Positions 29,432-40,089 of a stretch of 52,381 bases of DNA are shown one piece after another. This DNA comes from Verrucomicrobiota bacterium (GTDB lineage: Bacteria > Verrucomicrobiota > Verrucomicrobiia > Verrucomicrobiales > DEV007). The notes beneath the pieces are model-generated. The model worked only from the letters and a program-made list of their open reading frames with translations. It had not been told where the DNA came from and did no database searches. The translations under genes were made by a program, and so were the position numbers. The stretch lies in the NCBI GenBank assembly GCA_030625775.1, contig DAOUQC010000028.1, positions 1-52,381 on the forward strand, given 5' to 3'. Position 1 is the first letter of the stretch. Each line of letters starts with the position of its first letter.

Positions 29432-30694
29432 ATGAATCAACTCCCGAAACAATTTGCGTTGAGTCGAATGCTGCCTGGACCGGTTGCCCCGGCTTCGCGT
29501 ATCGTTGAGATCGACATTGTTCGCGGCTTCGCCCTCTTCGGTGTGCTGTTGGTGAACATGTACAATTTCGGCGCCGAGTCGATCGCATGGAACTCCAACG
29601 GCGACCAACTGGCGTTCGCTTTCATGCGTGTGTTTTTGCAGTCGAAGTCGTGGATCCTGTTCGCCATGCTGTTCGGATTCGGTTTCGCTTTGCAACTACA
29701 GCGCGGCGACGTAAGGAACTTTCGTTTCCTCTTCGCCTACCTCCGTCGGCTGGCCATGCTTTTTGCATTTGGCACCGCTCACGCGTTGCTCTTCGACGGC
29801 GATATCCTGATGCTCTACGCGGAGCTTGGGCTCGGGCTGCTTTTGGTGCGTCGTCTACCCACGCGAGTAATCCTTGTTCTGGCTGTCGGGCTCATGCTGA
29901 TTTTTCCCGCGGGCCGTCTCGCCTTGGGCCCTGAGCGGGAAGAGGTCGAAAGCGTTGCCGAAGTACGGGCTGAGCTCGAGATTACGCGGCAAACGGACGT
30001 GTACGCCACCGGGTCGCTCGCCGAGGTCATGGCAGACAACGCGAGCGCGATCCCCGCAGACCCTCTCGAGGACATCGACTCGCCGGAATCCGGCCTCGCT
30101 GTCTTTGCGATGCTCCTTCTCGGATTCTTAATAGGTCGATCCGGGGCTCTGCGCGACATCCCCGGTCACGTGGTCCACATTGCACGTGCGCGGAACTGGG
30201 GGCTGGGTCTGGGACTCGCGGCCATGGCGGCGGAACGAGTCCTCACTGCCACCGCCGGTTACGCAGTGTTCCGGCCGCAGCAAGCGGGACCGGGCGCACA
30301 GCTCGCCGGCGATCTCGTCTTCGCCTTCGGGGCTCCGGCGCTCGCCCTTGGATATGCTGCGACGCTCGTTCTCGCAGCGCAGACTCCCCACGGCAGGGCC
30401 GTGCTCGCGCCCCTGGCTGCTGTTGGTCGTCTCGCCCTGACCGTCTACCTGACTCAGACCCTGATGTTCTCCACATTGTTCTATGGGTATGGCTTCGATC
30501 AGGTCTTTCGCTTGGGCCCAGTCGCCATCACCATCTGGGCGGTGGTGATCTTCAGTGCACAGGTTGTTGCGTGCCAGTGGTGGTCGAGACACTTCCGCTT
30601 CGGCCCGGCGGAATGGCTGTGGCGTTCGTTGACCTACTTGAAGTGGCAGCCGCTACGTCTGCGGAACGAGCTGACGCCGCGGGGAGAAAGCTGA
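29432..30694 (+). CDS. DUF418 family polytopic membrane protein
   Basis: This 420-residue membrane protein has about eight to ten hydrophobic helices. Near the start, EIDIVRGFALFGVLLVNMYN is the typical opening of the DUF418/YeiB group (COG2311). The C-terminal half contains PLAAVGRLALTVYLTQTLM and RFGPAEWLWRSLTY, which match the DUF418 signature region. Its function is unknown; distant similarity to acyltransferase-3-type membrane proteins has been noted for the group. The gene has high GC and is the first gene of the accessory island. It could modify or export the product of the downstream biosynthetic genes, but 78 bases and an AT-rich stretch separate it from the next gene, so it may be independent. 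Confidence 0.85.
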   Translation: MNQLPKQFALSRMLPGPVAPASRIVEIDIVRGFALFGVLLVNMYNFGAESIAWNSNGDQLAFAFMRVFLQSKSWILFAMLFGFGFALQLQRGDVRNFRFLFAYLRRLAMLFAFGTAHALLFDGDILMLYAELGLGLLLVRRLPTRVILVLAVGLMLIFPAGRLALGPEREEVESVAEVRAELEITRQTDVYATGSLAEVMADNASAIPADPLEDIDSPESGLAVFAMLLLGFLIGRSGALRDIPGHVVHIARARNWGLGLGLAAMAAERVLTATAGYAVFRPQQAGPGAQLAGDLVFAFGAPALALGYAATLVLAAQTPHGRAVLAPLAAVGRLALTVYLTQTLMFSTLFYGYGFDQVFRLGPVAITIWAVVIFSAQVVACQWWSRHFRFGPAEWLWRSLTYLKWQPLRLRNELTPRGES

Positions 30695-30756: not shown

Positions 30757-30802
30757 TCCCGCCAGCAGTTAAATGAAAGGGTCGAAAAATCTATTTCTAA
30801 TC
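30757..30802. repeat. Left copy of an imperfect 46-base direct repeat
   Basis: TCCCGCCAGCAGTTAAATGA and the following GAAAGG-GTCGAAAAAT region match 39175-39220 at 35 of 46 positions when aligned without gaps by hand. The shared core is GAAAGGGTxGAAAAA. The two copies flank the secreted-repeat protein and the whole sbnA-sbnB-amidinotransferase-synthetase run, and both are in the same orientation. Confidence 0.5.
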
Positions 30803-30850
30803 AATTATATACTTGAGAATCAAATTCCTATCATTTACGCTGGCGCCACT

Positions 30851-31654
30851 ATGACAAAACAAAGCCCTATTGAACTAAGTAGCACCCAACAGATCAGACG
30901 GCGCGTGATGGGCCGATGTCTGTCATGCATTCTCGCTGCCGTGATGTTAATTGCCGTCACTCCGGCCTTTGCAGGCGGAAAGGCCACGCAGATGTGGAGA
31001 TGCGAATTGGACGACGATGCAACCGAGGAGCAAGTGATAAAGTCTGCTCAGAAGTGGCTCGCTGCTGCCAAGAAGACAAAAGGTGGTGAGAACCTTGAGG
31101 CCTACATATATTTCCCAGTTGCCGTCAACAACAACGGTGACAGTGACATGATCTTTGTGGTTCGCGCGCCGAATTTCAAGGAGTGGGGTGAGTTCTGGGA
31201 TGGCTACGCAGATTCTCCGGCAGCGAAGCTCGACAAGGAAAACCAAGATATCATTACTCCTACGGACAGCGGTTTGTGGGAATCAATCAAAGTGAAATCG
31301 CCGACCGCTCCGAAAACTGCGGGAAAGGCCACGCAGATATGGAGATGTGAATTGGACGATGACGCAAGCGAAGAGCAGGTGGTGAAAGCTGCTGAAAAGT
31401 GGCTCTCTGTTGCCAAGACGATGGATGGGGGTAAGAACCTTGAGGCTTATGTATACTTCCCGGTTGCTGTCAACGACAATGGTGATAGTGACCTGTTTTT
31501 CGTGATCAGCGCACCGAATTTCAAGGAGTGGGGTGAGTTCTGGGATGGCTACGCGGATTCTCCGGCAGCGAAGCTCGACGAGGAAAACCAGGATATCATT
31601 ACACCTACGGACAGCGCTCTGTGGGAATCCATCAAAGTGGAAGCAGCGGAATAG
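30851..31654 (+). CDS. Secreted protein with two tandem copies of an unknown domain
   Basis: From the ATG at 30851 this encodes 267 residues. A signal peptide (RRRVMGRCLSCILAAVMLIA, then VTPAFAG) is followed by two copies of a domain of about 105 residues. Both copies share the blocks MWRCELDDDA/IWRCELDDDA, GGxNLEAYxYFPVAVN and APNFKEWGEFWDGYADSPAA, and end in LWESIKV. I do not recognise the domain; small exported proteins with a similar 'KAT-x-W-C' start occur in marine bacteria with no known role. It lies 81 bases upstream of the Dap biosynthesis genes. Possible roles such as binding or protecting against the cationic product are guesses. An alternative start at 30908 would remove part of the N-region. 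Confidence 0.75.
   Translation: MTKQSPIELSSTQQIRRRVMGRCLSCILAAVMLIAVTPAFAGGKATQMWRCELDDDATEEQVIKSAQKWLAAAKKTKGGENLEAYIYFPVAVNNNGDSDMIFVVRAPNFKEWGEFWDGYADSPAAKLDKENQDIITPTDSGLWESIKVKSPTAPKTAGKATQIWRCELDDDASEEQVVKAAEKWLSVAKTMDGGKNLEAYVYFPVAVNDNGDSDLFFVISAPNFKEWGEFWDGYADSPAAKLDEENQDIITPTDSALWESIKVEAAE
30977..31642 (+). repeat. Intragenic duplication, two units offset by 345 bases
   Basis: Bases 30977-31297 and 31322-31642 are clearly similar along their length. GGAAAGGCCACGCAGAT is identical in both, as is AAGGAGTGGGGTGAGTTCTG. Differences are scattered and many are silent, which points to duplication within the gene followed by selection on the protein. This explains the two-domain structure of the encoded secreted protein. 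Confidence 0.9.
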
Positions 31655-31735: not shown

Positions 31736-32752
31736 ATGCCTGAACTTCGACAGCCAGTCGTTGCCAACGACTCAGAGATCCCATTGATCGGCGACACACC
31801 CAATAGGCGGATTCAGTTGCTCATCGACGGCAGGTATCGGAACGTGCATCTGAAGCTCGAGGGCCACAACCCGGGCGGCTCCGTCAAAGACCGGACTGCG
31901 TTCAGCTTGCTTAAGAGCCTTGAGGTAACTGGACAACTGCGCGAGGGCGGGCGACTAATCGAATCGTCATCAGGCAATCTGGCCATCAGCCTGGCGATGC
32001 TCGCTCGCGATCGTGGGTATCAGTTCACCGCCGTGGTAGACTCGAGCGTGACCGCGGAGAATATGCATCGCCTTCAGGCTCTGGGGGCCGAAACGAGGAT
32101 CGTCGAATCGCGTGACAAAACTGGTGGGTATCTCCTGAACAGGCTGACACTCGTCCAGGAAATGCTGGCTGAAGACCACGGATTGGTGTGGACGAACCAG
32201 TACTCCAACGCTGCCAACCCCGAAGCCCATCACTCGGGGACTGCACCCGAGATACACAGGCAGATGGAGCACAGGGTCGATGCCGTTTTCGTCGCTGTCT
32301 CCACGGGCGGCACGCTCGCGGGCATCGGGAAATTTTTCCGCGAAGCGAGTCCTGACACTCGCATCATCGCGGTCGACGCCAGAGGATCAGTAGCCCTGGG
32401 TGGATCTCTCGGTGCGCGGAAGGTGACCGGTATCGGCTCCGGCCGGCGATCCGAGTTCGTGTATCCTGAGCAATACGACGAGAGCATTTACGTTGGAGAT
32501 GGCGAGGCGTTTGCCTTCTGCCGGGCCTTGGATGCCGCTACCGGAATCAAGGTCGGCGGGTCGAGCGGGGCGGTCCTGACTGCCTGCTCCCAGTATTTAC
32601 AAACACACGACCAGGTCGAACGGGTGGTCTGCATTTGCGCGGATCGCGGAGAGCACTACGCCTCCACCATCTATAGCAACTCGTGGCTCGCGCAGAACGG
32701 GCTGGAGATTGGTCAGCAACACTTGGGAGGAGTATCTGAAATCCGTGGGTAG
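31736..32752 (+). CDS. sbnA: SbnA-like N-(2-amino-2-carboxyethyl)-L-glutamate synthase
   Basis: This 338-residue PLP enzyme is of the cysteine synthase fold type II. The PLP lysine is Lys51 in [13 protein letters not shown]. The substrate loop is [10 protein letters not shown], the phosphate-binding loop is [11 protein letters not shown], and the cofactor-ring Ser motif is [10 protein letters not shown]. Staphylococcal SbnA, of about the same length, joins O-phospho-L-serine and L-glutamate to give ACEGA, the precursor of L-2,3-diaminopropionate. The SbnA identity rests on the adjacent sbnB; alone, the sequence could be read as an O-acetylserine or O-phosphoserine sulfhydrylase. The ATG at 31736 fits the family start. 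The gene overlaps sbnB by 8 bases, which indicates translational coupling. Confidence 0.85.
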
Positions 32753-33764
32753 GGTCGTGTCAGACAGCCTGTTGATCCTCACTGCAGAGGAGGTAAAGGT
32801 GCTGCTTGAGGGCAGGGAGAGAGAGGTCATCGACTCTGTGCGCCTTGCCTACGAAACCCATGCCAGTGGGCAGAGCAGCCTTCCCCATTCCACCTTTCTC
32901 CGCTTTGCAAGCAAGCCGCGAGACAGGATCATTGCTCTACCCGCTTACCTAGGCGGCAGCGACCCCGTAGCCGGGGTCAAGTGGATTGCGTCCTTCCCTG
33001 AGAACGTGGAGCGAGGCATGGAACGAGCCTCCGCCGTCATGGTCCTCAATTCCGTCGATACCGGTCGGCCGGAGATGCTGCTGGAGGGTTCACTGATCAG
33101 CGCCCGGCGGACCGCTGCAAGTGCGGCGCTGGCAGCGAGACATTTAGCTAACATGGAAGAGACGACTTCCATTGGACTCATCGGCTGCGGCGTGATCAAT
33201 CGGGAGATCCTTCGATTTCTCGTGGCGCTGTGTGGTTCTCCCAAGCGGCTCCTCGTGTTCGACACCGATGCGTCGCGTGCCAGATCCTTCCTGGACGAGT
33301 GTGCTTCGCTGTGTCCTGGATCCGAAGGCGTGGTCGCCAGCCGCCTGGAGGAGATCGCCGATGAGTGCCAATTGGTCTCTTTTGCCACCACAGCGCTGGC
33401 CCCCTACGTGGGTTCCGAGATCCAGTTCCAGTCGGGCAGCACGATCCTGCATGTTTCCTTGCGCGATTTAAAGCCCGAGGTCATCCTGACGGCTGACAAC
33501 GTCGTGGACGACATCGACCATATCTGTCGGGCGGAGACCTCCGTCCATCTGGCCGAGCAGCAGTCTGGTAGCCGGGCGTTCATTCGCTGCACCTTGGCCG
33601 ATGTCCTGCTCGGTAAAGCTCCACCTCGGCACAGCCGTGAAGGCGTGACGGTCTTCAGCCCCTTCGGTCTTGGTGTTCTGGACCTCGCTGTCGCTCGACT
33701 GCTGCGGAACCTCGCCGAAGAGAAGGCTGTCGGCACACGTGTAAGCGGGTTCCTGCCCGGATAG
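32745..33764 (+). CDS. sbnB: SbnB-like Dap synthase (ornithine cyclodeaminase family)
   Basis: The 339-residue product belongs to the ornithine cyclodeaminase/mu-crystallin family. It has a substrate-binding [20 protein letters not shown], the Rossmann motif [16 protein letters not shown] and a C-terminal [15 protein letters not shown]. SbnB oxidatively hydrolyses ACEGA with NAD to release L-2,3-diaminopropionate and 2-oxoglutarate. The GTG at 32745 is preceded by GGGAGGAG and overlaps the end of sbnA by 8 bases; a TTG at 32709 and a GTG at 32757 are alternatives. Together with sbnA it forms a complete two-step Dap pathway. No siderophore (NIS synthetase) genes are nearby, so Dap is probably fed into the synthetase downstream. 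Confidence 0.85.
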
Positions 33765-33771
33765 ATGACTT

Positions 33772-34854
33772 ATGAAATCAATACCTAACGTTTGGAGTTG
33801 TAATGAATGGGATCCGCTCCAGGAGGTCATCGTCGGGAATCCGCTGGGCGCGCGGTTTCCGACGGCAGATCCCAGCACCCAGGTGGCTGAATTTCCCGAC
33901 AAGTCGCTTGAGGAGATCCCGCGTGGTCCATTTCCCCAGTGGATCATCGACGAGACGGAAGAGGATCTGAGCGAATTTATAGCCGTTCTGGAAGGACAGG
34001 GTGTTACCGTCAAACGCCCGGAGATATGGCCACACGAGGCCGCGTTCTCGACGAACGATTGGGAATCCCAGGGATTCTACAACTATTGCCCTCGCGATCT
34101 CATGCTCGTCATTGGCGATCAGATTATCGAAACCCCCAATGTCATCCGCAGCCGTGCCCAGGAATCGTTCAGCTATCGTGCCATGATGGTGGATTACCTG
34201 AAGTCAGGTGCAAAGTGGTATAGCGCACCCCGTCCCATGCTCCAGGACTCGCTCTTCGATGTCGATCTGAACAAGCCAACGCCGCGCAATGATGAACCGG
34301 CCTTTGATGCGGCAAACATCCTGCGCCTGGGTCGGGATCTCATCTACCTGGTTAGTGGAACAGGGAACCGAATGGGAGGGCAATGGCTGCAGACGATACT
34401 CGGAGACAAGTTCCGTGTTCACTTCTTCGAGGATGTCTACTACGGCAGCCACATCGACTCGACATTCGTGGCTCTACGTCCAGGCCTGATGCTGTGCAAT
34501 CCGGCCCGCATCAACGACGATAACCTGCCCGAGATCCTGAAACAGTGGGACATTATCTACAGCCCCCCTATGGAAGGCACGAACCCTTACGGAGCCGATT
34601 ATCTGTCCAAGAGTATCGGCAGCGAGTGGATCGACATGAATCTCTTCAGCATCAGTCCGGACCTGGTCGCGGTCGATCGAGATCAGACGCAGCTGATCAA
34701 GCTGCTGGAGAAACATGGCCTCGATGTTGCCCCGCTCAAGCTACGCCACTCGAAAATGCTGGGTGGCGGGTTCCATTGCGTGACCCTGGATATCCGCCGG
34801 GCAGGAACGCTCCAGCGGTATTTCGACGAACATCCCACTGTCACAAATGTGTGA
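33772..34854 (+). CDS. Glycine/inosamine-type L-arginine amidinotransferase
   Basis: The 360-residue product has the beta/alpha-propeller signature of the arginine:glycine amidinotransferase family: NEWDPLQEVIVGNP at the start, EDVYYGSHIDSTF, and GGGFHCVTLD near the end. The triad is Asp179 (PAFDAAN), His227 and Cys336, with Asp and His at the same numbers as I recall for StrB1 of streptomycin synthesis. These enzymes move the amidino group of arginine to an amine, leaving ornithine. Acceptors in the family include glycine, lysine and inosamine phosphates. Here the likely acceptor is Dap, giving 2-amino-3-guanidinopropionate, or a free amine of the polymer. The gene starts 8 bases after sbnB and ends 9 bases before the synthetase. 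Confidence 0.88.
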   Translation: MKSIPNVWSCNEWDPLQEVIVGNPLGARFPTADPSTQVAEFPDKSLEEIPRGPFPQWIIDETEEDLSEFIAVLEGQGVTVKRPEIWPHEAAFSTNDWESQGFYNYCPRDLMLVIGDQIIETPNVIRSRAQESFSYRAMMVDYLKSGAKWYSAPRPMLQDSLFDVDLNKPTPRNDEPAFDAANILRLGRDLIYLVSGTGNRMGGQWLQTILGDKFRVHFFEDVYYGSHIDSTFVALRPGLMLCNPARINDDNLPEILKQWDIIYSPPMEGTNPYGADYLSKSIGSEWIDMNLFSISPDLVAVDRDQTQLIKLLEKHGLDVAPLKLRHSKMLGGGFHCVTLDIRRAGTLQRYFDEHPTVTNV

Positions 34855-34863
34855 CGACTTTTC

Positions 34864-37800
34864 ATGTTAGGAACGATTCTGGCAGTCATAATCGTGGTCT
34901 TCTTCGGCTTGACGTTCGCGGCGTGGCGGCGCTACCTCTGGGTGGCTGAGAAGGCTCGGCACCCGCAGGAGGACACCTGCCCATACAGCTTGACGGATAT
35001 TTTTGATGATGGTCACATCGTGAATGTTCCGCATCAGGAGGGAGTCCTATGGCTGACGGAGATCTTCAGCCGCTCCGCCAGACGGTTCCCGGACCATCCG
35101 GCCTTACAGATTCCGCACACCGGAGAGATGCTGACGTTCGCTGAACTCGACGCGCGAGCCGAAGACGTGGCAGCGGCTCTGTCTCCCTTTCTTACCGGCC
35201 CCGATCAAGTCGTGGCCGTGGCCATGACACAGGACAACTGGCAGATTGTAGCTGGTCACCTCGGTATTCTCAAGGCTGGCGGAGCCGTGATGTTCCTCGA
35301 TACCACCTTGCCCGAAGCCCTGATCACCCACATGCTAGAGGACGCGCAGCCAGTGGCCATCCTCACGCGCGGACAAGAAAACTTCCGTGAGTTGCCGACA
35401 CTCGATGTCCTGGCCATGCGCGAGACGAGATCGCAAAGCGTGCCGCCGTCATGGCTGGACGACCCCACACAACGCCTGGCGACCATTTTCTACACGAGCG
35501 GAACCACCGGGATGCCCAAGGGGGTGGAATGCGCACACGCGGGGTACGTGAATCTGGCGCTAAGTTACGCGGACTACTTCGATCTCACCCCGGGTATAGA
35601 CGCGACTTCGCTCACGTCGTCACTGGGATACGACGGAAGCATCTCCGAAATGTACAGCGCCTGGGTTGCAGGTTGCTCGGTAGTCTTGCTAACCAAGGAG
35701 CAGGTCCGGTCCGGTCCAGATCTTGTTTCTGTGCTCCGTGAAGCTGAGGTCACGGTTCTGTTTTGCCCGCCGGTTCTGCTGACCACACTCACACCGAAAC
35801 CCGAGCAGGATCTCCCTTACCCATTGTGCCGCTACGTCGTTCCGGCGGGCGAAGCCTTCCCTTCCTCGCTCGTGGAGCCGTGGACACGAGGTCGACGGCA
35901 GATCATCAATACCTACGGCCCGACGGAGGCGAGCACCGACACGAGCCGCCAAAGCTTGAGACCGGGGGAGCCCGTGACCATAGGCCCTCCGCTTGCCAAC
36001 GTCACCTACGTCATCCTTGAAGTCGGCGAGGTCGACCCGCTGCCCCACGGGGAGGTCGGAGAGCTCTGCATCGGGGGAGTTCACGTTGCGCGCGGCTACC
36101 GCAACTTGCCAGAGCAAAGCGCGGAGAAGTTCATCACGCACCCTCGGTTCGGGCGTCTCTACCGCACCGGCGACAAGTGCAGGATCGATGTCAGGACGCA
36201 GCGTGTGCACTTCCTCGGCCGAATCGACACTCAGCTCAAGGTGCGGGGGCATCGGGTCGAGACCCAGCCTGTTGAGGACATCCTCCAGACGCAGTTCCCT
36301 GTGATAGAGGCCGCTGTGCTGGATTACCAGAACGAGGAGTTGGTCGCCTTTGTCGTTGCGCCGTCAGTCGCCGAAAGTAAAATCCCGGTCGTCTCTCCGG
36401 CCCCGACGGAGTGGGCAGCCCTCGTCACGAGGAGTCTGAGTGAGCAGCTTCCGGCACCGTCAGTCCCGACGAGAATTTTTCTGGTCGATGCATTCGTTTT
36501 GAAGCCTGTGTCCGGGAAGATTGACCGGGAGCGCCTGCCCGTCCTTTCCCGCCTACTGTCGAACGAGGCGTCGGCAGCGGGGGGAGCAGGGGAGGGCTTT
36601 GGTGTCTTCGAGACCAGGACGCTGGACGAAGAGGCCAGCAACATGCAAGCGCCCAAAGCTGATTCAGTGGAAGCGCCGGGCGCAGCGGAAGTGCTGGAGA
36701 TCTGCGGGGAAGTGTTCGATCATGCGCTTGGATGGGATGATGTCTTTGCCGATCACGGAGGGCATTCGATCGTCATTGCCCGTTTGGCGTTCCGCTTGCG
36801 GGAGGCGGGATGGGTGGTCTCCGTTCCGGCTCTGCTGACCGACTGCAACACTGCGAGGAAAGTCGCCCACTGCTCACGGGAACAACCGCAGAGCTCTGGG
36901 GCCAGTACGTCCACCGTGCCATCTGACAGCAAGCGAGGTGAGTGCGCAGAGGTAGGCGCAGAGGTGATTTCCGTCGGCTACTTCACGATCTTACAGATCC
37001 TGTTTCTGCTGCTACTTTACTCCCCACACCTCGTGGGCTTCATCGGATTTGTCGCCTTCGCGGAGATTGGCGAGTTTTTCGTGACTGCTGACCTCGGGGA
37101 GTTCATCATCGTCGGTTTCTTGACCTACTTACTTGCTCTCACGCTGCCGCTTGCAAGCCTGATCTGGGTCAAACTGATCAAGCTCTGCTTGGGTGTTAAC
37201 TTCCGCAAAAACGGAATGAAGCCGGGCGTCTATCACAGGTGGAGCCGAATGCATTTGCGAATCTGGTGTATCGGGAGGATGCAACTCTCGGTCCTCCGAC
37301 CGCTGAACGCAATGTTCCGCAGTGCACCGTTCATGGTATGGGTGTTGCGTGGGCTCGGAGCGACCGTGGGTAAAAACGTTCACTGCGCGCACGCCGTGGA
37401 GTTCTCCGGGCCGCTGGGACTCCTCTCCGTTGAGGACGATGTCACCATCCAGACTGGAGCTTACCTGTCCATGTCGAGGTGGGTGGGGAGGGAGTTGCAT
37501 ATTGGTCCGGTTCATCTCGAGAGTGGCTGTAAGATCGGCATGCGGGCCGGCGTCGCCAACCATGTGACGGTGGGGCGGGGGAGCTGGATTACTCCACTAA
37601 CGCCCATACTTGATGACGTGGGTGCTGAGGAAATGTGGGAAGGTGCTCCCGCCCAGTTCGCAGGCCGTTGCATGGCGTTGAAGCGCCCGACAAAGCACTG
37701 TCGTAATGCATTGCCGGTCTGGTTTCTGGAGACTCTCGGAATCCTCCAGCAGATGTTCCTGGATTTCTGCCTCCTGGTTGCTCCCACGGCCTTGGTCGCC

Positions 37801-39219
37801 TGGTTCACCGTCCTCTTTCTCCCCGCCGGTGAGACGGTCGGCTCCAGTGATTACTTTCGGATCACACCGCTGCTAGAGATCGTCTGGCACATGGGCCTCT
37901 ACGCGTTCGTCACCACCTGGGTGACCATGGTTCTGGTGTCGGTTGTTGGCTGCCTTTTTCTTCGCTGCACGCCCGCCTCGCCGGGGCTGTATCCCACCCG
38001 CGGGCTTAGGGCGCATCTCATCCTTTACCGGGTGAAGATGATGGATCAGATTCAGCGCGTCTGGACCTGGAGTATTTTCGGACAGTATCTGCGTTCTCTT
38101 GCTGGTGTGCGCTTTACACACACCGGCGCGTCTGAGTGTGACGCCATGTTCAACCTCGTCCCGGAGCTCATCAAGGCCGACTCCCAAGTGTTCTGGTCTC
38201 ACGGGTGTTATACAAACATCCTCGACCAGGGGGCTGAGCACCTGACACTCCGACGGATCGAAATGCCAGCGAACTCTTTCTTAGGCAACAATTGCGTCGT
38301 GGAGCACGGGAACCTCGCATCCAACTTCCTCATCGGTGTCTCCACGCCCGCGAATGACATCCGGTTCAGGCGCCAGATGCGGTCACGGCTCGGCGAATCC
38401 ATCACAGTGGTTGGAAACCCTCCAGTGAAGTTCGGCAGTGCGGACTTCAAGGTGGAGAACGAAGCTCAAAGACCGCCGAGCCTGCCGATCTTCCTGGCAC
38501 GTGTTTTCCTTCATGACATCTTCAATGTTGGCATGGTGCCCATCGCCGAAGTGCTCGTCTACGCGATCCTCTATACGGTTTTACTGAGCCTTGGAGGGCA
38601 TGCGGTGGTGAGCGCATGCCTTGCACTGGTTCTCGCAGAATTTGCCTTGCTTGCTTTCTGTATCCTGCTCAAGCGACTCGTCGTCGGCAATCAATGGGGA
38701 AAGTCGCACTCGACTCCGTTCTGGTCCTTGAGACACTTCACCTACTTTTTCATGCAGGACTGCTTTTTTGCCTGGTGCGGGAGATCCATGAGAACCCTCG
38801 CTGGGACAGTGCTCGCTAATCGCACCCTGCGTTTGATGGGGTGTCGGATAGGGCGGCGGACCATCATCGCTGATCCGCTGCAGGCCTTTGACTGGAACGC
38901 AGTGAATTTAGGCGACGATTGCATCATTGACGGCATGCTGCAGCTCCACACTTTCGAAAACATGATGCTGAAGGTGAAGCGCACGGAGATCCGGGATGGC
39001 ACCTCGGTCAGCTTCGGTGCCACGGTCATGGGCGGCGCGGTCATTGAACGCGAGACGACGCTCCTCCCAATGAGCCTGGTCCTGAAGGAGATGCGACTGC
39101 CCACAGCCATATACGAAGGCAGCCCCACGGAGCCAAGCTGTGATCATCTTCATTGCAACCCCTCCAATCCCGGCTCCCACAAGCAGCCAAACGAAAGGGT
39201 TGAAAAACCAATTTCCTAG
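34864..39219 (+). CDS. Pls/PosA-type membrane non-ribosomal peptide synthetase
   Basis: The 1451-residue protein opens with one hydrophobic helix (residues 3-20). The adenylation domain shows FYTSGTTGMPKG (about 209-220), NTYGPTEAS (349-357), LYRTGDK (432-438) and the A10 Lys552 in SGKIDRE. A carrier domain follows, with Ser635 in DHGGHS. The rest is three units of two membrane helices plus a left-handed beta-helix-like soluble part: helices near 704-770, 960-1035 and 1220-1275. This is the layout of epsilon-poly-L-lysine synthetase (Pls, about 1319 residues). There the C-terminal part links and releases a homopolymer without a normal condensation or thioesterase domain. By hand alignment with GrsA the pocket reads D-G-S-F-V-A-T-T-D-K, which suits a basic amino acid. 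The gene has high GC and is the last of the operon. Confidence 0.92.
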   Translation: MLGTILAVIIVVFFGLTFAAWRRYLWVAEKARHPQEDTCPYSLTDIFDDGHIVNVPHQEGVLWLTEIFSRSARRFPDHPALQIPHTGEMLTFAELDARAEDVAAALSPFLTGPDQVVAVAMTQDNWQIVAGHLGILKAGGAVMFLDTTLPEALITHMLEDAQPVAILTRGQENFRELPTLDVLAMRETRSQSVPPSWLDDPTQRLATIFYTSGTTGMPKGVECAHAGYVNLALSYADYFDLTPGIDATSLTSSLGYDGSISEMYSAWVAGCSVVLLTKEQVRSGPDLVSVLREAEVTVLFCPPVLLTTLTPKPEQDLPYPLCRYVVPAGEAFPSSLVEPWTRGRRQIINTYGPTEASTDTSRQSLRPGEPVTIGPPLANVTYVILEVGEVDPLPHGEVGELCIGGVHVARGYRNLPEQSAEKFITHPRFGRLYRTGDKCRIDVRTQRVHFLGRIDTQLKVRGHRVETQPVEDILQTQFPVIEAAVLDYQNEELVAFVVAPSVAESKIPVVSPAPTEWAALVTRSLSEQLPAPSVPTRIFLVDAFVLKPVSGKIDRERLPVLSRLLSNEASAAGGAGEGFGVFETRTLDEEASNMQAPKADSVEAPGAAEVLEICGEVFDHALGWDDVFADHGGHSIVIARLAFRLREAGWVVSVPALLTDCNTARKVAHCSREQPQSSGASTSTVPSDSKRGECAEVGAEVISVGYFTILQILFLLLLYSPHLVGFIGFVAFAEIGEFFVTADLGEFIIVGFLTYLLALTLPLASLIWVKLIKLCLGVNFRKNGMKPGVYHRWSRMHLRIWCIGRMQLSVLRPLNAMFRSAPFMVWVLRGLGATVGKNVHCAHAVEFSGPLGLLSVEDDVTIQTGAYLSMSRWVGRELHIGPVHLESGCKIGMRAGVANHVTVGRGSWITPLTPILDDVGAEEMWEGAPAQFAGRCMALKRPTKHCRNALPVWFLETLGILQQMFLDFCLLVAPTALVAWFTVLFLPAGETVGSSDYFRITPLLEIVWHMGLYAFVTTWVTMVLVSVVGCLFLRCTPASPGLYPTRGLRAHLILYRVKMMDQIQRVWTWSIFGQYLRSLAGVRFTHTGASECDAMFNLVPELIKADSQVFWSHGCYTNILDQGAEHLTLRRIEMPANSFLGNNCVVEHGNLASNFLIGVSTPANDIRFRRQMRSRLGESITVVGNPPVKFGSADFKVENEAQRPPSLPIFLARVFLHDIFNVGMVPIAEVLVYAILYTVLLSLGGHAVVSACLALVLAEFALLAFCILLKRLVVGNQWGKSHSTPFWSLRHFTYFFMQDCFFAWCGRSMRTLAGTVLANRTLRLMGCRIGRRTIIADPLQAFDWNAVNLGDDCIIDGMLQLHTFENMMLKVKRTEIRDGTSVSFGATVMGGAVIERETTLLPMSLVLKEMRLPTAIYEGSPTEPSCDHLHCNPSNPGSHKQPNERVEKPIS

Positions 39220-39220
39220 C
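39175..39220. repeat. Right copy of an imperfect 46-base direct repeat
   Basis: This copy matches 30757-30802 at 35 of 46 positions and contains CCAAACGAAAGGGTTGAAAA. It overlaps the last codons and stop of the synthetase gene, so the C-terminal residues NERVEKPIS are encoded by the repeat. High GC ends here and more AT-rich DNA begins. Confidence 0.5.
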
Positions 39221-39300
39221 AGTAGTCAGTCGGAACCCCGGATCAACTTTTTAACTTGATGCAGGTGCCCATCCTGTAGTGGAAAGGGGATTGATATTAC

Positions 39301-39328
39301 TGTTCATTATCAATTGTTCCACTATAAT
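39301..39328 (+). promoter_or_regulatory. Candidate promoter of the phosphopantetheinyl transferase gene
   Basis: A perfect TATAAT lies at 39323-39328, 38 bases before the ATG at 39367. TGTTCA at 39301-39306 gives a weak -35 at a 16-base spacing, while the better TTGATA at 39291 is too far away (26 bases). The surrounding 100 bases are AT-rich, unlike the synthetase gene before them. Confidence 0.4.
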
Positions 39329-39366
39329 TGTCACTCAAATGAGGCTTCGTTTCCTCCGTTACGGTT

Positions 39367-40089
39367 ATGCTTCGTGAGAGCTTGAGTCAGAATAGTCTGG
39401 AGGTCTGGTACACCTCCTGCGCGGATATTGACGACGACACGTTTCATCGCGCCGAAACACAAACCCTTGCCCGCGAAGAGAGGGAGCGTATGTATCGCTA
39501 TCGTCAACCTTCTGATAGACGGCTTTACTTGACCTCCCGATTGCTTCTACGCTCGATGCTTGAAGTGTTTACCGGCGTGGCCGCTGAGGATTGGCGTTTT
39601 CGCTTTAATGAATACGGTAAACCTGAGCCTGAAGAAGGTTTCCCGCCTGTTCATTTCAATATCTCCCATTCAAAAGGTCTTGCCGTCTGTGCTATGCATC
39701 CTGGCATGGACGTTGGCGTCGATGTGGAACCTTTGGGCCGGCAGGTAGATTCAGGCACCGCATCCAGTGTTTTAATTGCAAGAGAGTGGGAGTCTTATTC
39801 GGAATCACCGCAAGCACAGAGATCTGAAATTTTCATCAAATACTGGGTTTTGAAAGAAGCTTATATCAAGGCAACGGGCAGGGGACTTTTCATGCCTCTC
39901 ACCGATTTTTCCTTTGAGTTTGACCAAGCGGGCAATCCTCAGCTCAGTTTGACTCATTCCGAAGGAGATCAGGTAAATGATTGGCTTTTCTTTGAATTCC
40001 AGCCTTCGCCGGACTATTCGGCGGCAGCGGCCATTCGAAAGCAGGCAAATGAGGAGATTGATTTGAATGTCAGGCAGTTCACTCCCTGA
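39367..40089 (+). CDS. Sfp-type 4'-phosphopantetheinyl transferase
   Basis: A 240-residue enzyme that transfers phosphopantetheine from coenzyme A to the serine of carrier proteins. It shows the Sfp-family motifs FNISHSKGLAVCA (P1b), VGVDVEPLGR (Mg-binding Asp and Glu) and FIKYWVLKEAYIKATGRGL. The most likely partner is Ser635 of the adjacent synthetase. GC content and third-base use look nearer to the flanking chromosome than to the synthetase, and the gene has its own candidate promoter. It may therefore have been resident before the biosynthetic genes arrived, or come from another source. Confidence 0.92.
   Translation: MLRESLSQNSLEVWYTSCADIDDDTFHRAETQTLAREERERMYRYRQPSDRRLYLTSRLLLRSMLEVFTGVAAEDWRFRFNEYGKPEPEEGFPPVHFNISHSKGLAVCAMHPGMDVGVDVEPLGRQVDSGTASSVLIAREWESYSESPQAQRSEIFIKYWVLKEAYIKATGRGLFMPLTDFSFEFDQAGNPQLSLTHSEGDQVNDWLFFEFQPSPDYSAAAAIRKQANEEIDLNVRQFTP

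Follow-up and report, generated by a model that had tools for sequence, protein, structure and literature searches.

The stretch analyzed here, called the window, is the 52,381-nucleotide sequence of contig DAOUQC010000028.1 (positions 1 to 52,381, forward strand) from a Verrucomicrobiota bacterium (GCA_030625775.1; GTDB order Verrucomicrobiales, DEV007; genome completeness, 96%). It carries a cluster of about 10 kb in which two genes for the synthesis of L-2,3-diaminopropionate (Dap) stand before an arginine-dependent amidinotransferase gene and a gene for a Pls-like synthetase with membrane helices. The features, all on the plus strand, are as follows.

29432..30694, plus strand: DUF418/YeiB-like membrane protein (Pfam DUF418, 130 bits)
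30773..31654, plus strand: secreted protein with two copies of a ferredoxin-like α/β-barrel domain of about 105 residues (homologues, alignment, and fold model)
31736..32752, plus strand: SbnA-like pyridoxal phosphate (PLP) enzyme of Dap synthesis (TIGR03945, 344.9 bits; cut-off, 349.95)
32745..33764, plus strand: SbnB-like dehydrogenase of Dap synthesis (TIGR03944, 414.2 bits; cut-off, 326.9)
33772..34854, plus strand: arginine-dependent amidinotransferase of the StrB1/AGAT family (matches to 1bwd and 1jdw)
34864..39219, plus strand: Pls-like single-module synthetase (membrane helix, adenylation domain, carrier domain, and three condensation [C] domains among membrane helices)
34864..34938, plus strand: extra N-terminal hydrophobic helix of the synthetase, residues 1 to 25 (hydropathy scan)
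35053..36549, plus strand: adenylation domain, residues 64 to 562, with the pocket code DGSFVATTDK
36688..36870, plus strand: peptidyl carrier protein (PCP) domain, residues 609 to 669 (Pfam PP-binding, 27.8 bits; cut-off, 20.8)
36952..39135, plus strand: C-terminal condensation region with three membrane-helix pairs and three C domains
39367..40089, plus strand: Sfp/HetI-type 4′-phosphopantetheinyl transferase (PPTase) (ACPS domain, 69 bits; cut-off, 25)

The open reading frames (ORFs) of SbnA and SbnB overlap by 8 bases, SbnB having a GTG start, and are followed by gaps of 7 bases (SbnB to amidinotransferase), 9 bases (amidinotransferase to Pls), and 147 bases (Pls to PPTase); these spacings and the gene positions, given in an initial annotation of this DNA, were all confirmed on the ORFs. 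The recurring block starts upstream of the four tightly spaced genes, at about 29432, and includes the DUF418 protein and the secreted protein. In other clusters, the SbnA model TIGR03945 gives 374.3 bits in L032, over its cut-off, and 273.2 bits in L057 of Luminiphilus, under it.

Scanning of genome contigs with a profile built on an alignment of three amidinotransferases yielded 41 loci, 35 of which encode amidinotransferases 65 to 84% identical to that of the window. A Pls gene is found in the same locus in 29 of these 35, no more than 1.6 kb downstream of the amidinotransferase gene and on the same strand in 28 loci (an S41 peptidase gene intervenes in L055) and farther away in L067, which has an S41 peptidase insertion as in L055. 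SbnA, SbnB, and the amidinotransferase are colinear in 17/35 loci by script, and the full order SbnA-SbnB-amidinotransferase-Pls was scored in 15/35 by script (L055 included) and in 17 by eye; the two loci added by eye, L066 and L067, have a broken amidinotransferase frame. SbnA and SbnB lie nearby on the opposite strand in L057 and L062, and two of the six loci without Pls (L044 and L052) belong to genomes that hold a Pls gene elsewhere. The hosts are Alpha- and Gammaproteobacteria (among them Zhengella mangrovi X9-2-2, L051), Acidobacteria, Gemmatimonadota (amidinotransferase only), Desulfuromonadales, and a single bin assigned to Cyanobacteria, with a 3.9-kb contig that in the trees resembles a Blastocatellia locus and is perhaps misbinned. 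Judged by this recurring order, the four genes are one unit that travels together rather than a chance neighborhood, as had been proposed from their spacing in the window.

The tie of the locus to Dap, likewise part of the initial annotation, is supported by repeated and apparently independent association with SbnA/SbnB. Trees of both proteins were built with references from plasmids and from one genome of the window's phylum, and a single clade of cluster proteins was rejected by the approximately unbiased (AU) test for SbnA (p 1.26e-7; 21 rows versus 9) and for SbnB (p 3.37e-21; 20 rows versus 8). The cluster proteins instead take several places: a Luminiphilus pair, a group of Haliea, Lysobacterales, and Desulfuromonadales, a group of Alphaproteobacteria and Acidobacteriota, and the window, whose place is unsure. 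The SbnB tree is without L035, from which 17 residues were extracted, and both trees contain several long branches, including the window SbnA, which makes exact places unsure and may have affected the AU test too. The trees suggest that SbnA/SbnB joined, or were replaced at, one amidinotransferase-Pls core several times, which would be hard to explain unless the core were tied to L-Dap. In addition, three closely related loci without SbnA/SbnB (L059 to L061) have a PLP enzyme adjoining the cluster. A scan limited to the L059 enzyme identifies it as a Dap ammonia-lyase (PRK08206, 487 bits, cut-off 276; TIGR01747, 314 bits, cut-off 274), with 343 bits for TIGR03528, under the cut-off of 532; those of L060 and L061 are its homologues by clustering, and because the three loci are closely related they add one further Dap association at most. 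In L059 (6133-8889), the Dap ammonia-lyase, a glutamine amidotransferase, and an EutA-like racemase stand in a row beside the amidinotransferase-Pls core, and this row may be a Dap-related degradation operon.

By domain matches, hydropathy, and a fold model, the window synthetase has the Pls architecture that had been assigned to it, in which an adenylation-carrier module is followed by three helix pairs and three C domains. The AMP-binding and PP-binding models both score over their cut-offs, and six helices form three pairs at residues ~697 to 778, 960 to 1038, and 1214 to 1275. TIGR02353, the Pls/PosA terminal domain, covers profile positions 66 to 694 of 695 in the window protein; its cut-off of 423.1 bits is missed by the window (155.2), L036 (174.2), and L061 (118.9), and among the four references scanned it is passed by L080 (559.5), L081 (557.6), and L082 (772.6) and missed by L079 (358.7). 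The N-terminal hydrophobic helix is not found by hydropathy in the five reference Pls/PosA proteins. An AlphaFold model of the C-terminal region has a mean predicted local distance difference test (pLDDT) score of 72, with C domains 1 and 3 modeled as left-handed β-helix folds whose nearest solved structures are hexapeptide acetyltransferases (best E 9.7e-6). The C-terminal region is about 20 to 25% identical to the five references. A set of its residues conserved across the family is kept in at least four of the five, including H1362 and E1365 of C domain 3, which is consistent with a common acyl-transfer chemistry. Streptomyces L079 is the reference most similar to the window enzyme (adenylation domain, 36.2%, with L080 at 36.1%; C-terminal region, 24.8%, with the other references at 19.6 to 21.6%). 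The alignment was limited to proteins of >1200 amino acids (24 loci and the window), so that the fragments in L037, L040, L045, L054, and L066 are excluded, and the alignment for the fold model additionally excludes L053 and L061. In the resulting tree, the 25 full-length cluster enzymes stand together at 100/100 against the five references. Pls-type matches also appeared in Acinetobacter baumannii records.

The adenylation pocket is invariant. The code DGSF[V/I]ATTDK is present in 25/25 full-length cluster enzymes, down to 44% overall identity, and a single substrate is therefore likely; pocket positions were set through core motifs rather than by alignment with PheA, and the numbering is presumably that of PheA. 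Asp235, which holds the α-amine, is kept in all 25, and the activated monomer should accordingly carry a free α-amine. Position 239 is Ser in 25/25 cluster enzymes versus Glu in 5/5 references, and position 236 is Gly in 25/25, without the Phe236 of the PDAP/PDAB synthetases. PMC10522769 proposes that longer substrates go with smaller residues at position 236 (Phe in PDAP/PDAB, Met in PosA, and Ala in Pls); Gly236 would stand at the large-substrate end of this rule, which argues for a monomer larger than Dap. The same paper describes a Bdellovibrionales enzyme with the code DSECYGGVTK that activates L-arginine but not the four diamino acids tried, and the window's most similar reference, L079, carries the same code. 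This L079 gene (2932-6951) lies on a plasmid of Streptomyces sp. NBC_00060 and encodes a Pls-like synthetase below the TIGR02353 cut-off. Typical residues of Arg-activating domains, as listed in the portion of PMC12283262 at hand, are shared at Asp235, Val299, Asp331, and Lys517. Taken together, the pocket evidence leans toward a guanidino monomer and away from Dap, and neither is proven by it.

No Pfam or NCBIfam family matches the amidinotransferase at E ≤ 0.001; the enzyme is recognized by its similarity to the solved inosamine-phosphate amidinotransferase 1bwd (E 5.7e-109) and to arginine:glycine amidinotransferase (AGAT) 1jdw (E 1.4e-57). All seven residues compared (C336, H227, D109, D179, D229, R246, and S284) are kept in 32/32 aligned sequences; after alignment with AGAT, we take them to be the catalytic Cys, His, and Asp and the arginine-binding Arg and Ser of AGAT numbering. 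Only proteins of >300 amino acids entered this alignment and the tree, and L065 is omitted from the alignment. The window enzyme thus has its family and the compared residues in common with StrB1 (1bwd) and AGAT (1jdw); unlike these, the cluster enzymes form one group (94/94) that includes a Robbsia enzyme at weak support (86/71), and their acceptor is predicted to be L-Dap by gene context only. The Robbsia gene, 63% identical in product to that of the window, lies in a different cluster on plasmid p3 of Robbsia andropogonis (L028, 5337-16041), together with genes for EctB, a phosphoribosylglycinamide-synthetase-like protein, a PGM1-related peptide ligase, SIS and SDR proteins, and an aldehyde dehydrogenase. 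The EctB of this cluster is the diaminobutyrate transaminase (572 bits; cut-off, 552), its presence is counted toward the Dap link, and the product of that cluster may be a guanidinylated diaminobutyrate peptide. Amidinotransferase matches on plasmids came to 45 records; in the four examined (H31 to H34), no Pls was annotated nearby in a gene table that is incomplete.

The cluster appears to have spread horizontally and is present in at least three named phyla besides that of the window. The G+C content at third codon positions (GC3) is 0.67 to 0.72 in the genes for the DUF418 protein (0.717), SbnA, SbnB, the amidinotransferase, and Pls, versus 0.50 to 0.59 in the 14 other window genes measured; it is 0.59 in the secreted protein gene and 0.494 in the PPTase gene. 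The window and the Acidobacteriota locus L039 stand together in the Pls tree (100/97), and in the amidinotransferase tree the window falls in a nine-row group of Gammaproteobacteria and L039, its place within the group not being resolved. The amidinotransferase has no match at E ≤ 1e-20 in the 37 other relatives searched, two of them of the same genus, and among 387 sampled genomes of the phylum such matches occur in two, the window's own and G177; the latter holds two more distant enzymes (32 to 49% by segment) in neighborhoods that look sugar- or glycan-related by eye, with no Pls seen beside them. In this sample the gene combination is thus rare in the phylum, in line with the initial annotation. 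The PPTase, which the initial annotation had counted within the locus, keeps its Sfp-type identity and its distance of 147 bases, but its membership in the transferred block was rejected on its GC3 and on a 54% identical gene in the same-genus genome G411, which has no amidinotransferase match. Matches to this PPTase at E ≤ 1e-20 are found in 6/38 relatives (the window's genome included), so it is not widespread, and a PPTase gene is present in 14/35 amidinotransferase-family loci; in the window it is probably a resident gene able to serve the carrier domain. When an empty site was sought in G411, only the PPTase and the adenylation-domain part of Pls (31%, in a different nonribosomal peptide synthetase [NRPS] gene) were matched among the window's proteins, and no synteny was seen.

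The accessory genes vary among loci. A DUF418 gene occurs in 11/35 loci and a gene for a TraX-like membrane protein in 8/35, never both (Fisher p 0.037); the secreted α/β-barrel protein and the S41 peptidase each occur in 12/35, again never both (p 0.002). Because the loci share ancestry and many are truncated, the p values are only indicative, and an S41 match at 23% in L035 was excluded from the counts by the 50% identity limit. The DUF418 protein has a 65% identical homologue in L039 and weakly resembles the HGSNAT membrane acetyltransferases (HGSNAT_cat, E 0.0027, under cut-off). The TraX-like protein scores 28.8 bits with Pfam TraX (cut-off, 25) and 22.5 bits with NCBIfam TraX_Ftype, under the cut-off of 149. 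The name of the TraX family derives from a pilin acetylase, and a membrane acyltransferase role for the DUF418 and TraX-like proteins is a guess from that name and from the weak HGSNAT similarity. A TraX-like membrane domain is found at the C terminus of Pls in L033, L049, L055, and L067, and in L042 (15405-16271) it is encoded by or with the synthetase gene, either fused to it or right after it. In a Rhodococcus Pls/PosA plasmid locus, an HGSNAT-annotated gene lies two genes downstream.

The secreted protein matches no Pfam family at cut-off; its start is probably at 30908, with a signal peptide, as judged by eye. The model of its L039 homologue (mean pLDDT, 84) is matched by Foldseek to hydroxynitrile lyase, chlorite dismutase, olivetolic acid cyclase, and SnoaB (E 1e-4 to 2e-3). 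In the window (30773-31654) the domain is tandemly duplicated, whereas it is single in the 11 homologues called as ORFs, and both copies lack the second cysteine of the other homologues.

Gene identities, recurring order, synthetase architecture, the invariant pocket, and the repeated association with Dap genes are read from sequence; from them we infer the acceptor and position of amidination, the monomer activated, polymerization, the accessory roles, and a biological purpose. Our tentative reading, held with slightly less than even confidence, is of a horizontally spread cluster that makes a guanidinylated Dap peptide by means of SbnA/SbnB, the amidinotransferase, and the membrane-embedded Pls-like enzyme. 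SbnA and SbnB would form L-2,3-diaminopropionate, and the amidinotransferase would transfer the amidino group of arginine to the β-amine of Dap, giving L-2-amino-3-guanidinopropionate, a short arginine analogue. The membrane-anchored, PPTase-primed synthetase would adenylate this guanidino monomer and load it on its carrier domain, and its three C domains among the membrane helices would link such monomers, giving a short cationic oligomer. As the side-chain amine would no longer be free, this chain would need α-peptide bonds, whereas the polymers of known Pls enzymes are joined by isopeptide bonds. The membrane acyltransferase-like protein (DUF418 in the window, TraX-like in other loci) may add an acyl group to the product or help to move it. 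The more specific proposal of a homo-oligomer of 2-amino-3-guanidinopropionate, a nonribosomal, α-linked relative of polyarginine with short side chains or few residues ("short-chain") that is assembled at the membrane, possibly exported, horizontally spread among phyla, and representative of an undescribed polymer class, is possible but doubtful.

Several observations weigh against this guanidinylated Dap peptide. Known Pls enzymes link their monomers by isopeptide bonds, which β-amidination would block; the alternatives would be an α-linked chain, a cap, or amidination after assembly. The middle C domain is modeled with low confidence (model residues 393 to 510, <50 pLDDT). DGSFVATTDK is none of the codes compared; it differs from the typical residues of Arg domains in the available part of PMC12283262 at positions 236, 239, 278, 301, 322, and 330, and Asp331 also occurs there in Ser, Lys, and Glu/Gln codes, so it is not diagnostic for a guanidino monomer. 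No Pls match at E ≤ 1e-30 was obtained in the genomes of L056, L058, L063, and L064; the amidinotransferase of L064 runs into a contig end. Among 23 genomes checked, 19 hold both the amidinotransferase and Pls, and SbnB over cut-off is absent from 9 of these 19, as is SbnA over cut-off from all nine; among the nine are L036, L038, and L039, whose Pls proteins are closely related to that of the window. All nine genomes are metagenome bins, yet incompleteness alone would account poorly for 9/19. The SbnA cut-off discriminates poorly: the SbnA proteins of the window and of Luminiphilus miss it as well, and four of the nine genomes hold SbnA-like genes at about 249 to 271 bits, so divergent SbnA may be present in some of them; the SbnB result is firm. 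Among the neighboring proteins scanned in loci without SbnA/SbnB or without Pls (some of those in L036, L038, L039, L042, L045, L056, L058, L059, and L063), the L059 Dap ammonia-lyase is the single one with a bearing on Dap. No column of the amidinotransferase alignment discriminates loci with SbnA/SbnB from those without, so that in the latter either Dap has another source or the acceptor differs.

Retention of the amidinotransferase and Pls without SbnB in these nine genomes would suit a small mixed peptide or amide, in which a carrier-loaded guanidino or other amino acid is joined to a free amine, of Dap or another compound, and no polymer is formed. A blocked side chain would bar the usual isopeptide chain, and the membrane acyltransferase-like partner could cap a short product; yet the Pls-type enzymes named in the available part of PMC10522769 make homopolymers, and Dap genes are repeatedly associated with the core, which leaves this alternative rather unlikely. 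Plain poly-Dap, the other product that the initial annotation had put forward, is disfavored because the pocket lacks the Phe236 and Glu239 of poly-Dap-type enzymes. A version in which Pls polymerizes Dap through β-isopeptide bonds and the amidinotransferase then guanidinylates free α-amines or the chain end agrees with the colinearity of SbnA, SbnB, and the amidinotransferase in 17/35 loci, with the same C-terminal architecture, and with the poly-Dap system of Streptomyces albulus PD-1, described in the accessible portion of PMC4668381 as two-enzyme Dap synthesis with a Pls-type enzyme; the pocket, the TIGR02353 score far below cut-off, and the 9/19 genomes without SbnB speak against it, and we regard it as improbable. 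That SbnA/SbnB serve a siderophore and are chance neighbors of the core would recall staphyloferrin B, from which these enzymes are known (PMC3179956, in the part available), and three fetched plasmid SbnA/SbnB pairs do adjoin IucA/IucC. This reading was rejected and is highly improbable: the same colinearity holds across several phyla with separate associations, and IucA/IucC have 0 matches in the window's genome in a search that gave matches in the control genomes of Escherichia coli and Haloferax volcanii. The earlier statement that no siderophore synthetase is present therefore extends to the whole genome, TonB genes not having been searched.

Like the cluster studied here, the S. albulus PD-1 system combines two-enzyme Dap synthesis (NjxA/NjxB) with a single-module adenylation-carrier synthetase bearing three C domains among membrane helices, but the word amidinotransferase is absent from PMC4668381, whereas here the amidinotransferase is in the operon. 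The PDAP synthetase is reported in PMC10522769 to have Phe236, a residue the window pocket lacks, and membrane acyltransferase-like partners recur in the present cluster. PosA, the δ-poly-L-ornithine synthetase, and its Bdellovibrionales homologue (PMC10522769) share the architecture of the window enzyme, which differs by its extra N-terminal helix, by Ser rather than Glu at position 239, and by Asp at position 331. The six known homopolymers of diamino substrates counted in PMC10522769 and its own δ-poly-L-ornithine are not guanidinylated, and no description of the present gene combination was found in the titles and abstract openings of open-access papers. The amidinotransferase-Pls core would be the defining part of the cluster, to which Dap genes have apparently been added repeatedly, and a variant of the Pls/PosA kind of cationic homopoly(amino acid) synthetase. 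A guanidinylated polymer, if real, would give the synthetic cell-penetrating polyarginines a natural equivalent and would reveal the way in which an NRPS-like enzyme of the membrane handles a monomer incapable of isopeptide bonds. That unrelated SbnA/SbnB pairs have repeatedly joined one amidinotransferase-Pls core, or been replaced there, is a clear case of convergent pathway assembly.

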